Shown in pieces: positions 41,333-47,072 of a DNA stretch of 53,230 nt. The notes below the pieces were generated by a model, which was not told the origin of the DNA, searched no databases, and saw nothing but the letters and a program-made list of their open reading frames with translations. Position 1 is the stretch's first letter. The number at the start of each line of letters is the position of its first letter. The DNA is taken from NCBI GenBank assembly GCA_905233565.1, contig CAJOCL010000011.1, positions 1 through 53,230 of the forward strand. Reading direction: 5' to 3'. The translations under genes were made by a program, and so were the position numbers. Source of the DNA: an uncultured Synergistales bacterium. GTDB taxonomy: Bacteria; Synergistota; Synergistia; Synergistales; Aminobacteriaceae.

Positions 41333-42478
41333 TTACTCTTCATATTCGCTGAAGCTGTCAGTGTCTATAGTTTTCAGCTCGAAGACTTTTTCAACGTTTA
41401 CACAGAAATTATTAGCGATCATCAAGTTAGCCAGCTTAACGCCGTCAATGAGCATAATTCTTTCATCGTTAGCATAAATTTTAGCCTGTTCCGAAAAATT
41501 GGCCGTTGTCGCAAAAATTCCCTTTCCGCCTTTATCCGCCAGCTCTTCAACAAAGTCCTGAATATCAGATCTTCCGACCGTCCTTGCAGGCGATAACTTT
41601 TTAGCCTGAATATATATCGGGTTTGAGCCGGTTTTATTGTCGAGTATAACGCCGTGAATTAAATCGCTTCCAGATGATTCAGTCGTGTATCTTGCCGTCT
41701 GGAAAGCAAAATATCCCATTTTCGAGAGAAGGTCAATAACAAGCATTTCAAACCTGTCTGAAGCTATAGCGGCCGTTTTCATGAGAATTTCATCGGCTAA
41801 ATCTGAATTGTAACGGGCTATGACGTCCTCAATGTTCCGTGAAGGGGTTACGGAATCGCTTGGATTTTCAGGCTCAGGCTCTTGCTCAGGTTCTTGCTCT
41901 AATTCGGGCTCAGGCTCAGATTCGGGCTCTGGTTCTGCTTCAGGTTCAACGGCTTCAACAGTTTCAACATTTTCCAAGTTTACTTCGGGTGCTTCGTCAA
42001 ATTCCTGACCTGAAAAATCTTCGGCCTGAATATTTTCCTGAATATCCTTCTGAATTTCTTCAATCGGCTCTGAATTTTCAGCTTCAACGGCTTCAACAGG
42101 TTCAACAGGTTCATCGGGTTCAAGCTGTTCAAGTCCGAAAGTTTCAGAGACGGGGAGGGATTTATTTTTTCTGGCCTGTAAATAATCATCGCTTATTATT
42201 TCCGGGTTTTCTTCGAGGACTTCCGTACCTGCATTTGTAATCATGTAGGTATTTTTTGACGGATTGGACAAAAGATTATAAGTTCGTAAAGTTGATTTTG
42301 CCTCGTTTATTCTCGTCCTGAAAGTAGTTTTATCCCCTGATGATAAATCACTGAGATTTAATCCGAAATCAGCGGCCATGTCTTCAAGAAATTCATTGAT
42401 TGCGAAACTTCGCGGGGCCTCACCTTTGAATGCCTCAAGTAACGGCTTTCGTATTTCCTGAGTGCTGGGGATTGGCAT
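41333..42478 (-). CDS. mrr: Mrr-like restriction endonuclease with acidic repeat linker
   Basis: The 381-residue protein has an N-terminal winged-helix Mrr_N domain (about 1-90). A long Glu/Pro/Val-rich linker follows (about 105-215), with PEPE-type repeats. The C-terminal Mrr catalytic domain (about 225-360) shows FEMLVIDLLSKMGYFAFQTA, Asp in SGSDLIHG and QAKK, followed by FVEELADKGGKGIFATT. Mrr enzymes cut modified DNA or respond to damage. The catalytic motif normally reads GGDGGID, so GSDLIHG is a variant. The start is ATG 42478. It is divergent from the polysaccharide deacetylase gene and followed by rimO. Confidence 0.88.
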   Translation of the reverse strand: MPIPSTQEIRKPLLEAFKGEAPRSFAINEFLEDMAADFGLNLSDLSSGDKTTFRTRINEAKSTLRTYNLLSNPSKNTYMITNAGTEVLEENPEIISDDYLQARKNKSLPVSETFGLEQLEPDEPVEPVEAVEAENSEPIEEIQKDIQENIQAEDFSGQEFDEAPEVNLENVETVEAVEPEAEPEPESEPEPELEQEPEQEPEPENPSDSVTPSRNIEDVIARYNSDLADEILMKTAAIASDRFEMLVIDLLSKMGYFAFQTARYTTESSGSDLIHGVILDNKTGSNPIYIQAKKLSPARTVGRSDIQDFVEELADKGGKGIFATTANFSEQAKIYANDERIMLIDGVKLANLMIANNFCVNVEKVFELKTIDTDSFSEYEE

Positions 42479-43558: not shown

Positions 43559-43651
43559 TTAAGATTTCTTCTTTGAATCGCTGTTCTTGCCGCCTGATGT
43601 TCCCGCGCTTCCTCCGGCTGAACCTGAATCCTTCTCTTTTTCTGCTGACAT
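43559..43651 (-). CDS. 30-residue Ser/Gly/Lys-rich microprotein coupled to the aldehyde dehydrogenase
   Basis: A short frame starts at ATG 43651, only 6 bp after the dehydrogenase stop. The bases GAGGAG that end the upstream gene serve as its Shine-Dalgarno site, with normal spacing. The product begins MSAEKEKDSGSAGG and ends KNSDSKKKS: 30 residues with no hydrophobic core, so probably disordered. It is followed by a bidirectional terminator 13 bp downstream, so it is the natural last gene of the operon. No family is recognised. It could be chance, but the tight placement, good ribosome site and terminator favour translation. Confidence 0.55.
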   Translation of the reverse strand: MSAEKEKDSGSAGGSAGTSGGKNSDSKKKS

Positions 43652-43657
43652 TTCAGA

Positions 43658-45139
43658 TTACTCCTCGTCCATACCGTCCTGGTAGAACTCTCCGAAAAGT
43701 TCCTTCAATGAAGGCATATCCTCAGGAATAGGACGCGCTACCCATGTAGTATTCATGTAGTGCTTGAGGGTGATATTTTCGCTGACGATGTTACCGCCCC
43801 AAGTTCCGCAGCCCATTGAGTTAGTGGGGGGCATTCCGTTAGTTGAGCTTCCTGCGTTGCCCCTGTTGTTCGGCTGACGAATCATGCAGCGTGAAACGGG
43901 TGCGCACATTCCCAGACGGTGAATGTGATCATCATCGAATGAATACAGACCGCATGAGTGGCCTTTTCCGCCGGCCTTGTCGAAAATTTCCTGCATTATG
44001 TCAAGTGCAGTCTGGAACTCTCCGCCGTATTTGAACAGCGTTAAGAGGGTTGTTAATTTTTCGGTGCTGAAGAAGTGCTGTTTTCCGATACATTTCTTTA
44101 TGTCTTCAGCGTTGTTGATCGTGAAGCCTTCCTTCTGGCCGTTGTTCGGTACTGCTATGAACTTTCTGTCCGCAGGAATTTCAAAGCCTGCTGCCTTTGC
44201 CAAAGCCTGTGCGCTGATTGCTACCGTGTCGGGAAGCCTGTGGCCTGTCTCGTCCCACATAACTTTCTTGATTGCCTCTGCCTGTTCCCATGTCGGAATA
44301 TAGGCACCCTCTTTGACAAGTCCCTCAACGAAATTGTCATATACTGACTCGTGAACGATTAAATTTCCGTCGCATGAACAGCCTGAGCCGAAATCTGCAC
44401 ACTTTGAAATCCTCGTGTTCATTGCCGCCTCATATGCACGTTCTTTCGTGTTTGCCGTGTTGTCAACGATTACCGTTGAGTTCCCTGCGCCTGAACCGTA
44501 AGCAGGTACGCCCGATGAATAAGCCGACTTGACCATAGGACTGCCGCCCGTTGCAATTACCAGATCAACCATCTTCATTAATTCCTGAGTAAGCGTTATG
44601 CTCGGCTCTTCGATTACCTGAATAATATCAGCAGGCGCACCCTCACGGACAAGAACATCACGGATAATGTTTACTGTTTTGCATGTCGTCTTCTTTGCTC
44701 TGGGGTGCGGTGAGCAGATGAGAACATCGCGGGCCTTGACTGCGTAAATTGCCTGTCCTGCCGGCGTAACGCACGGGTTTGTTGTCGGGACTAACGTTGC
44801 TATTACTCCTACGGGCTTTGCGTATTTAACGAGACCTTTTTCGGGAATCTCTTCGATTATGCCTACACTCTTCTGTCTGAGGCAGTCGCGGAGTATTAAC
44901 TTGAGCTTGTTCCTCTTGTTGCGCTTTGTTACCTTGTCGCCGAGCCTTGTTTCGTCAACTGCTTCATCGCAGATAGGCCCCCAGACTTTCAGCGGATAGA
45001 GTGCCGCACAGATTGCACGGGCGAGACGGTCGACTTTTTCCTGATCGTATGTTGCGATGACTTCTGCTGCCGCTCTGGCTTTTTTAACCATTTCTTCAAG
45101 CATTGCGATCTCTTCGGGTGTTACTTCATGATGAGCCAT
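43658..45139 (-). CDS. CoA-acylating aldehyde dehydrogenase (SauS-like)
   Basis: The 493-residue protein is a CoA-acylating aldehyde dehydrogenase of the EutE/AdhE/SauS group: aldehyde plus NAD(P) plus CoA gives acyl-CoA. The likely catalytic Cys254 lies in ADFGSGCSCDGNLIV, aligning with the EutE cysteine. VPTTNPCVTPAGQAIYA (117-133) and ATGGSPMVKSA (196-206) are cofactor-domain segments. The end has RGNAGSSTNGMPPTNSMGCG, like SauS, the sulfoacetaldehyde dehydrogenase. The ribosome site AAGGAGA precedes it. It follows the thiamine-diphosphate enzyme by 82 bp, with a hairpin in between, and the microprotein comes next. The substrate is not fixed by sequence; propionaldehyde, acetaldehyde and sulfoacetaldehyde are candidates. 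Confidence 0.85.
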   Translation of the reverse strand: MAHHEVTPEEIAMLEEMVKKARAAAEVIATYDQEKVDRLARAICAALYPLKVWGPICDEAVDETRLGDKVTKRNKRNKLKLILRDCLRQKSVGIIEEIPEKGLVKYAKPVGVIATLVPTTNPCVTPAGQAIYAVKARDVLICSPHPRAKKTTCKTVNIIRDVLVREGAPADIIQVIEEPSITLTQELMKMVDLVIATGGSPMVKSAYSSGVPAYGSGAGNSTVIVDNTANTKERAYEAAMNTRISKCADFGSGCSCDGNLIVHESVYDNFVEGLVKEGAYIPTWEQAEAIKKVMWDETGHRLPDTVAISAQALAKAAGFEIPADRKFIAVPNNGQKEGFTINNAEDIKKCIGKQHFFSTEKLTTLLTLFKYGGEFQTALDIMQEIFDKAGGKGHSCGLYSFDDDHIHRLGMCAPVSRCMIRQPNNRGNAGSSTNGMPPTNSMGCGTWGGNIVSENITLKHYMNTTWVARPIPEDMPSLKELFGEFYQDGMDEE

Positions 45140-45180
45140 GATATATCAGTTCTCCTTAAAAATTTTATGCTTTTAATTTT

Positions 45181-45209
45181 ACCCCTCTGCTTTATTCCGG
45201 CTGAGGGGT
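45181..45209 (-). other. Intercistronic hairpin between ThDP enzyme and aldehyde dehydrogenase
   Basis: A perfect 7-bp stem ACCCCTC/GAGGGGT encloses a 15-nt loop and lies in the 82-bp spacer, about 12 bp after the stop at 45222. On the transcribed minus strand it is followed by AAAATTAAAAG, not by T, so it is not a standard terminator. It could be a partial stop, a processing site or an mRNA stabiliser. Confidence 0.5.
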
Positions 45210-45221
45210 GATTACTGCCTC

Positions 45222-47072
45222 TTACTTCGTTATGTGTGACTTCGCGTGACTGGGCGGAATGTATTTCCCGTTCGCGTCCTTCTTTACCAGTTTTCCTTCC
45301 TTGACAAGATCGCTCGGTGTGTAAATATCGTTGATGTTCCAGCAGCCCGGTGTAGGAACGGCGATATTCTCCATAATTGCTTCGACAAGGAACGGCTTAC
45401 CGGCTTTGTTGGCCTCAACAGCCTTCTTCAGTGCCGGCCCCAGTTCATCGGCTGAATTTACGCGGATTGAATCAATTCCGTAACCCTCAGCGACTTTTGC
45501 CCAGTTCGGCGAATAAGCCTCGCCGTTGGGCGTATGGAATTTCGTACCGTACTGGGTGTGATAATTTGCGTTCTCAAGCCCCGCGATCGTTCCGAATGCC
45601 ATGTTGTTCATTACAAGCCACATGCAGGGGATTCCTTCTTCAACAGCCGTAGCCATGCAGGTCGGATTTACGCCGAAACCGCCGTCGCCGATTAATGCAA
45701 CGCAGATTTTATCGGGTGCCGCTTTCTTTCCGCCCAAAACTGCACTGGCTCCGAATCCCATTGTTGCAAGCCCTGAAGAATGGTGAACGGTTCCGGGTAT
45801 CGTTATGTCATACTGCTGTGCAACTCCGTTCTTGTTCCAGCCTACGTCCGTAAAGATTAAAGCATCTTCGGGAAGCGCGCCCTTCAGTTCCTTCAAAATT
45901 CTCTGAGGTGTCATCGGGAATCTTGAATCGTTTGAAATTGCAACGTTCGATGCCTTGAAATCGGCTTTTGCCTTCGCTATCTTTTCGCGCAAGCCTGCAC
46001 GCTTTATTCCTTCGGGCTTGATTGCCTTTGCAGCATCAAGAATCTGCTTCAGTGCAAGTTTCAGATCCGCAACTGCTCCGATCTCAACAGGATAGTTACG
46101 GCCGATTTCCGTCGGGTCAATGTCAATCTGAATGAATTTTGTTGTTGACGGATCGAAAGTTACGCCCTGATACCAGCTTGATGAATCAGCCTCCGCGAAT
46201 CTCGTTCCAAGCGCGAGAATTACATCTGCACCGAGCGTAAATTCATGAGTATGTGCAAGTCCCCAGAAACCTGTCTGACCGATCATTAACGGGTGAAGAT
46301 CGCTTACACAGCCCTGACCCATAAGAGTACGTGAAATCGGAATATCAAGAAATTCAGCGAGTGCCGCAAGTTCTTCTGATGCCTGAGCCAAAAGAACACC
46401 GCCGCCGGCATGGATTACGGGGGCTTTCGCCTCAATTAAACGCTTTGCGATCGCCTTTGCGCATTCGGGATCAAGCGCGGGCTTAACGGTTATATGGCTG
46501 TCCTGATACGTTCTTGCAAACAGGTCTTCCTCGATTTCCCTGCTCCAAATGTCCATAGGCATATCAATAAGGACGGGGCCGGGTCTTCCTGATTCGGCGA
46601 GCCTGAAAGCCTTGTCGAGAATATCCGGCAGTGCTTCGGGATCGTCAACCCTCCAGCAGCGTTTGCAGACCGGTTCCAAAAGCCTGTACTGCGTCGCATC
46701 GCCGTGCATGTTGACTTCCTGATGAGGGTGCTTGCCGTAATAGTAACTCGGAACATCTCCGGCGAATACTACCATAGGGATTGAATCAAATGCTGCATTT
46801 GCTACGCCCGTCAGTACGTTTGTTATTCCGGGCCCTAAGTGGCACATGACTACTGAGGCCCTGTGCGTTACTCTTGCGTAACCGTCTGCGGCTGTTGAGG
46901 CTACTGCTTCATGTCTGTTTGAAATGTAACGGAGTTTTCCGCCCTTCTGTTCGTTGCGGTTCAATGCGTCAAGCATTCCGATTACTGTATGGCCGCAAAG
47001 CCCGAATATGTATCTGACATCGCGGCGTTCAAGGTAATCAACTATAAGGTCTGCTACCAGTTTTTTGCTCAT
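45222..47072 (-). CDS. Thiamine-diphosphate-dependent decarboxylase/acetolactate synthase-like enzyme
   Basis: The 616-residue protein has the three-domain architecture of the acetohydroxyacid synthase/Xsc/decarboxylase superfamily. Glu55 in SNRHEAVAS is the catalytic glutamate of the pyrimidine domain. The ThDP signature is GDGGF (462-466) with NN at 489-490. A central domain (about 200-350) with GTRFAEAD and QIDIDP resembles the FAD/ADP-binding region. Unlike known Xsc, the segment at 106-130 (DVPSYYYGKHPHQEVNMHG) differs, so the substrate is open. Paired with the acylating dehydrogenase it suggests the route 2-oxoacid to aldehyde to acyl-CoA, or acetyl transfer. A glutamate here excludes glyoxylate carboligase. 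It is the first gene of the operon. Confidence 0.85.
   Translation of the reverse strand: MSKKLVADLIVDYLERRDVRYIFGLCGHTVIGMLDALNRNEQKGGKLRYISNRHEAVASTAADGYARVTHRASVVMCHLGPGITNVLTGVANAAFDSIPMVVFAGDVPSYYYGKHPHQEVNMHGDATQYRLLEPVCKRCWRVDDPEALPDILDKAFRLAESGRPGPVLIDMPMDIWSREIEEDLFARTYQDSHITVKPALDPECAKAIAKRLIEAKAPVIHAGGGVLLAQASEELAALAEFLDIPISRTLMGQGCVSDLHPLMIGQTGFWGLAHTHEFTLGADVILALGTRFAEADSSSWYQGVTFDPSTTKFIQIDIDPTEIGRNYPVEIGAVADLKLALKQILDAAKAIKPEGIKRAGLREKIAKAKADFKASNVAISNDSRFPMTPQRILKELKGALPEDALIFTDVGWNKNGVAQQYDITIPGTVHHSSGLATMGFGASAVLGGKKAAPDKICVALIGDGGFGVNPTCMATAVEEGIPCMWLVMNNMAFGTIAGLENANYHTQYGTKFHTPNGEAYSPNWAKVAEGYGIDSIRVNSADELGPALKKAVEANKAGKPFLVEAIMENIAVPTPGCWNINDIYTPSDLVKEGKLVKKDANGKYIPPSHAKSHITK

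Follow-up and report, generated by a model that had tools for sequence, protein, structure and literature searches.

What is the role of a thiamine diphosphate (ThDP)-dependent enzyme encoded head to tail with a CoA-acylating aldehyde dehydrogenase, both on the minus strand, in an uncultured Synergistales bacterium of the rumen? The question is raised by a contig of 53,230 nucleotides (assembly GCA_905233565.1, contig CAJOCL010000011.1), the whole of which we call the window. An initial annotation described the pair, together with a coupled 30-residue microprotein, as an unassigned three-gene operon, perhaps for the degradation of a sulfonate or another 2-oxoacid. "Unassigned" is true for the window alone, but an assignment follows from the rest of the genome, where contig C10 bears an operon of the order AroE-TIM-AroD-HMGL-DctQ-DctM-DctP. 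We favour, with modest confidence, the view that these two enzymes make up one half of a module that degrades hydroaromatic acids anaerobically, namely quinate and, where AroD is present, shikimate; this half would open the ring and activate the product with CoA.

The two enzymes and their conserved neighbourhood

Both reading frames are intact (Table 1). The ThDP enzyme carries a GxxGHT motif with His28, Glu55, HPHQE (115-119), GDGGF (462-466) and NN (489-490). The best PDB match of the dehydrogenase is 8cei, an acylating succinate-semialdehyde dehydrogenase (E 1e-75; residues 13-483), and its Cys254 aligns with the catalytic cysteine of that structure; the full-length match and the cysteine place it among the acylating aldehyde dehydrogenases of the SucD/AdhE-N/SauS type. 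The catalytic features named in the initial annotation (Glu55, GDGGF and NN in one protein, Cys254 in the other) are all confirmed.

Orthologs of the ThDP enzyme were found in 68 of the 188 Synergistota genomes searched, a count that leaves out one 35% match. They are present in most members of the genus, which consists of rumen and gut Synergistaceae metagenome-assembled genomes (one labelled Fretibacterium), in many other Synergistota and in Bacillota, named isolates included (matches of 62-98%); one further copy each was found in a spirochaete and on an Azoarcus plasmid. The dehydrogenase accompanies the ThDP enzyme in 65 of the 68 genomes, and the two genes are adjacent in nearly all congeners. 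This conserved linkage supports the earlier suggestion that a ThDP-dependent C–C lyase would be followed by a CoA-acylating dehydrogenase, with energy kept as acyl-CoA.

Outside the genus, the recurrent partners of the ThDP gene are the acylating aldehyde dehydrogenase (ALDH), a shikimate/quinate dehydrogenase of the AroE type (AroE/YdiB-like), a xylose-isomerase-like TIM barrel resembling 3-dehydroshikimate dehydratase (DSD) and IolE (hereafter TIM), a lyase of the HMG-CoA-lyase type (HMGL), and TRAP and/or tripartite tricarboxylate (TTT) transporters; the type I dehydroquinase AroD is a partner at only part of the loci. At least one of TIM, AroE, HMGL and AroD lies near the ThDP gene at 67 of 75 such loci, and three or more of five partners do so at 52; TIM is the most constant (60 loci). 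The order HMGL-ALDH-ThDP-TIM-AroE-DctQ-DctM-DctP was seen repeatedly. In one congener (G024), the two halves that are separate in the window's genome are joined in a single same-strand array, AroE-TIM-HMGL-DctQMP-DctP-ThDP-ALDH. The few loci examined that surround members of other ThDP families had none of the partners, save one (L042) that had been chosen for its ALDH. Dioxygenase or aromatic-ring genes were not seen recurring with the module.

Of the 188 genomes, 62 contain both the ThDP enzyme and TIM, 6 and 5 contain one without the other, and 115 contain neither; the corresponding counts outside the genus are 29, 2 and 4, and 110. As these genomes are related by descent, Fisher P values for the counts are not to be read at face value. 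Three complete congeners without the ThDP enzyme (G009, G018 and G019) also have neither TIM nor HMGL. From these patterns, we consider it very likely that the pair belongs to a recurrent degradation module. G019 has nevertheless kept a solitary dehydrogenase gene (93% identity; L040:9056-10537), which may have a second role.

Table 1. Positions of the two enzymes and of nearby features within the window.
Feature	Position	Strand	Remarks
ThDP-dependent enzyme, 616 aa	45222-47072	-	intact open reading frame; Pfam TPP_enzyme N/M/C
ThDP-dehydrogenase spacer, 82 nt	45140-45221	-	dehydrogenase ribosome-binding site AAGGAG and non-conserved hairpin
CoA-acylating aldehyde dehydrogenase, 493 aa	43658-45139	-	intact open reading frame; catalytic Cys254
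30-aa frame	43559-43651		lies 6 nt past the dehydrogenase stop
Mrr-type restriction endonuclease	41333-42478	-	long Glu/Pro-rich repeat linker

The partner enzymes and the chorismate route

The partners suggest the substrate. The AroD of the C10 operon scores above its equivalog cut-off with the Schiff-base Lys and the His in place. AroE is nearest to the YdiB-type quinate/shikimate dehydrogenases and retains the catalytic Lys and Asp, and it exceeds its cut-off in both non-genus operons tested. HMGL is above its cut-off with intact Arg, HxH and Cys motifs. In TIM, the metal-site residues E135, D165, H191 and E240 are invariant, and the structure model (pLDDT 94) has Lmo2234, IolI and a TIM/HPPD fusion protein as its closest fold matches. 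Within the genus, AroD shares only about 30% identity with the AroDs of other Synergistota operons and is absent from many congeners, an absence that is expected if AroD is needed only for the entry of shikimate.

In the window's genome we found no chorismate synthase, in a search that detected all 14 controls; at 96.5% completeness, a missed gene is unlikely yet possible. The same genome has no type II dehydroquinase and a single full-length AroE-like gene. Taken together, these results indicate that AroE and AroD do not serve the normal chorismate pathway. We therefore rejected the idea that they are normal biosynthetic copies, and their role in this genome is best read as catabolic rather than as aromatic synthesis. 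Quinate/shikimate is, on this evidence, the likely substrate of the module. Genome G000, which is without chorismate synthase, also contains an aroB-like sugar-phosphate cyclase (contig C7:47570-48553; L174:1459-2532) whose score of 204 bits is below the cut-off of 305.

A variant of the module is seen on a plasmid of Azoarcus sp. KH32C, where the cluster comprises TIM, a CoA-transferase, a citryl-CoA lyase, the ThDP enzyme (54%), AroE and AroD, with no acylating dehydrogenase annotated within it. The lyase scores 461 bits on the citryl-CoA lyase equivalog model, above the cut-off of 261, the CaiB-type CoA-transferase is nearest to the succinate–glutarate type, and the TIM homologue matches the N-terminal half of the 3-dehydroshikimate dehydratase QuiC. 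The CoA-transferase and citryl-CoA lyase may replace the acylating dehydrogenase, an independent hint of a citrate-like acyl-CoA. If the ring-cleavage product were homocitrate, such a tricarboxylate would be activated by CoA transfer and split to acetyl-CoA and a 2-oxoacid, as the Azoarcus genes suggest.

Proposed pathway

What we observed is which genes are present, how they are linked and co-occur, and to which families they belong with which catalytic residues; from this we infer the substrate, every reaction and the reaction order, and the same holds for all function in the module, the two window enzymes included. Quinate would enter through the TRAP or TTT transporter and be oxidized to 3-dehydroquinate by the AroE/YdiB-like enzyme; shikimate would enter as 3-dehydroshikimate and be hydrated to 3-dehydroquinate by AroD. 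TIM would then remove the C4 hydrogen and the C5 hydroxyl of 3-dehydroquinate, giving the cyclic 1,2-dione 1-hydroxy-3,4-dioxocyclohexane-1-carboxylate. The same elimination is performed by 3-dehydroshikimate dehydratase on 3-dehydroshikimate and yields protocatechuate, but here the product would be non-aromatic because the C1 hydroxyl is still present. The ThDP enzyme of the window would hydrolytically cleave the C3–C4 bond, as cyclohexane-1,2-dione hydrolase (CDH) and IolD do on 1,2-diones, so that C3 becomes an aldehyde and C4 a carboxylate. The resulting aldehyde would be the semialdehyde of homocitrate, which the dehydrogenase of the window would convert to homocitryl-CoA with formation of NADH. 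Finally, the HMGL-type lyase would probably split homocitryl-CoA into acetyl-CoA and 2-oxoglutarate. The substrates of HMGL-type lyases carry a tertiary 3-hydroxyl, like C1 of quinate.

The net reaction would be quinate + 2 NAD+ + CoA -> acetyl-CoA + 2-oxoglutarate + 2 NADH, and by our calculation the formulae balance (C7H12O6 - 2H - H2O + H2O - 2H (+CoA) -> acetyl-CoA + C5H6O5). We give the exact chemistry an even chance of being right as drawn.

Placement of the ThDP enzyme

The ThDP enzyme falls well below these curated cut-offs: 379 bits against 538 for the acetohydroxyacid synthase (AHAS) model TIGR00118, 380 against 866 for NF004919, 282 against 676 for Xsc (TIGR03457) and 234 against 715 for IolD (TIGR04377). 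A tree built with reference sequences that included AHAS, Xsc, Gcl, IolD, CDH and pyruvate oxidase puts the enzyme and its relatives (20 rows) in a clade of their own with 100/100 support, separate from AHAS, Xsc, Gcl, CDH and IolD. This agrees with the earlier remark that a new substrate is possible. A true AHAS, which groups with IlvI, is encoded elsewhere in the genome: it lies on contig C3 next to the gene for an ACT-type small subunit. Within its clade, the window enzyme nests among gut Bacillota (Lachnospiraceae, Clostridium symbiosum and Acidaminococcus), apart from most other Synergistota copies, and this nesting points to horizontal transfer of the ThDP gene.

CDH physiologically cleaves the C–C bond of cyclohexane-1,2-dione (PMC12247030). 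The ThDP enzyme shares the GxxGHT motif and His28 with CDH (PDB 2pgn), and this histidine is absent from the AHAS, Xsc, Gcl, pyruvate oxidase and IolD references. A second shared histidine, proposed by eye (His78 for CDH His76), was discarded since the alignment puts the two residues one column apart.

Several observations weigh against the proposed pathway. His28 alone is retained of the CDH active-site set His28, His31, His76 and Asn484, the other three aligning to Ile, Leu and Ile in the ThDP enzyme. The two are not sisters in the tree: the deep placement of the ThDP clade is weakly supported and does not group it with CDH or IolD. The predicted fold of the enzyme (pLDDT 79, a moderate confidence, low near 117-122 and 493-510) is generic for AHAS/Gcl-type enzymes. 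The AroE of the genus scores 191 on TIGR00507, just under the cut-off of 200, and has Ala at the second Ser of YdiB, altering the Ser-x-Ser motif. TIM resembles 3-dehydroshikimate dehydratases, which would yield protocatechuate from 3-dehydroshikimate. At eight of the 75 loci no partner lies within the sequence covered, and HMGL and ALDH are present without the ThDP enzyme in some genomes.

Alternative explanations

The strongest of the alternatives, although unlikely, retains the module and its substrates. In a retro-benzoin reaction, the ThDP enzyme would cleave the acyloin of 3-dehydroquinate (C3 ketone, C4 hydroxyl) itself, with no dehydration beforehand, and release a dialdehyde; TIM would be an epimerase/isomerase or act later. 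ThDP enzymes of the same fold do perform reversible acyloin cleavage, as in benzaldehyde lyase and 2-hydroxyacyl-CoA lyase, both among the fold matches, and ketose 3-epimerases are among the PDB relatives of TIM. However, TIM is the most constant partner and its fold is nearest to DSD/Iol-type proteins, Azoarcus uses a QuiC-type homologue, and the citryl-CoA lyase/CoA-transferase variant better fits a tricarboxylate product.

Somewhat less probable still is a different substrate altogether, some cyclic or branched 2-oxo or hydroxy acid other than quinate and shikimate, for which the AroE, AroD and TIM homologues would have been co-opted. The divergence of the genus AroE from its curated model and from the Ser-x-Ser motif would be consistent with this, as would the low identity and patchy presence of the genus AroD. 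Against it, AroD exceeds the equivalog cut-off with its catalytic residues, and AroE is nearest to the YdiB type and above its cut-off in the two operons tested outside the genus.

Sulfonate degradation by an Xsc/SauS-like route, on sulfopyruvate or sulfoacetaldehyde as the initial annotation had proposed, is very improbable. These sulfoacetaldehyde enzymes belong to the same superfamilies as the pair, and SauS (NF047625) is the top NCBIfam match of the dehydrogenase, but its 389 bits fall far short of the cut-off of 600; the ThDP enzyme is likewise far below the Xsc cut-off, and Xsc forms a separate clade. The recurrent neighbours are AroE, AroD, TIM, HMGL and TRAP/TTT transporters, whereas sulfonate genes are not recurrent across the 75 ThDP neighbourhoods. 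The Azoarcus plasmid copy alone has TauE/SafE- and sulfate-exporter-type genes in its vicinity.

A biosynthetic or catabolic acetolactate synthase lying by chance next to an aldehyde dehydrogenase can practically be dismissed, since the best-scoring general models are indeed acetolactate synthases (380 bits) but the scores are well below the AHAS cut-offs, the clade is separate rather than inside AHAS, the linkage to the dehydrogenase is conserved and the genome has its own AHAS. The initial annotation had named as its refutation a firm place inside a characterised acetolactate synthase clade combined with a lack of conserved linkage; the tree and the neighbourhoods show the opposite.

Relation to known systems

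The proposed quinate/shikimate module resembles the degradation of myo-inositol, in which the dehydrogenase IolG, the dehydratase IolE (forming a cyclic 1,2-dione), the ThDP-dependent ring hydrolase IolD and the acylating dehydrogenase IolA act in turn. The sequence of enzyme kinds is alike: NAD dehydrogenase, TIM dehydratase, ThDP ring cleavage and acylating dehydrogenase. The module differs in having AroE in place of IolG, a SauS/SucD-like rather than an IolA-like dehydrogenase and a terminal HMGL-type lyase; its ThDP enzyme is apart from IolD in score and clade, and no IolB, IolC or IolJ was seen with it. An iolD/iolG/acylating-dehydrogenase cluster was also seen. Aerobic quinate and shikimate catabolism proceeds through quinate dehydrogenase, dehydroquinase and the 3-dehydroshikimate dehydratase QuiC/AsbF to protocatechuate. 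The module shares the AroE-type dehydrogenase, the dehydroquinase and the DSD-like TIM with this route, but continues instead with the ThDP enzyme, the acylating dehydrogenase and HMGL, and most of its hosts are anaerobes.

Our literature search for homocitryl-CoA, anaerobic hydroaromatic degradation and gut quinate catabolism found no description of such a module, nor any genes or route for hydroaromatic fermentation; most subscription journals were outside its coverage, so a prior description is possible.

Other features of the locus and related loci

The conserved part of the proposed three-gene operon is the ThDP–dehydrogenase pair; its third member is not conserved. The 30-residue frame exists in the window but is absent from every other distinct 3' flank compared among congeners, and we rejected the microprotein as a functional part. 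The intercistronic hairpin, also put forward as a feature, was rejected likewise: in congeners the spacer varies from 17 to 218 nt, is mostly unstructured and in most cases lacks the hairpin. The spacers of L034 (218 nt), L005 (141 nt) and L019 (111 nt) contain GC-rich or repeat-rich, strongly folding insertions. Judged by eye, a terminator-like hairpin stands at the 3' flank of the dehydrogenase in many congeners; promoter and terminator scans gave results near chance.

A few further loci deserve mention. In L042 and L043 (genomes G085 and G049), which belong to genomes without a ThDP ortholog, an HMGL-type lyase lies beside a 62-63% dehydrogenase, possibly forming a related aldolase/acylating-dehydrogenase pathway. 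A plasmid of Ponticoccus alexandrii (L169:466-6939) carries a 33% ThDP homologue split into two open reading frames, with a type II dehydroquinase and several NAD(P)-dependent oxidoreductases in the vicinity; this may be a further pathway for cyclic acids. In Clostridium aminophilum (L110:11837-13774), two genes of the methylisocitrate-lyase/PEP-mutase family directly follow the ThDP gene, both below curated cut-offs.

Implications

Plants are rich in shikimate and in quinate, the latter both free and as part of chlorogenic acids, and rumen and gut diets are therefore rich in them too. Two specialist fermenters of hydroaromatic compounds, Ilyobacter insuetus and Propionivibrio limicola, were described by Brune et al. 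(2002), a study cited in PMC3035301, PMC4930944 and PMC10512730. The proposed module would account for this physiology, and it is a gene-level candidate for a fermentation known from cultures. Its hosts that can be grown in culture include Clostridium symbiosum ATCC 14940, Acidaminococcus intestini DSM 21505, Lutispora thermophila DSM 19022, Acetoanaerobium pronyense DSM 27512 and C. aminophilum DSM 10710.

To conclude, we regard as evenly balanced the larger proposal of a complete, undescribed anaerobic quinate/shikimate pathway that proceeds by ThDP-dependent ring cleavage and a homocitryl-CoA split, has spread horizontally among rumen and gut Synergistota and Bacillota, and has a CoA-transferase/citryl-CoA-lyase variant in Azoarcus. 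If true, it would be an undescribed oxygen-free route for opening the quinate/shikimate ring in gut and rumen microbes. It would add a family of ring-cleaving ThDP enzymes and explain anaerobe genes that resemble "acetolactate synthase" and "hydroxymethylglutaryl-CoA lyase". It would also tie plant hydroaromatics to acetyl-CoA and to glutamate/propionate metabolism.

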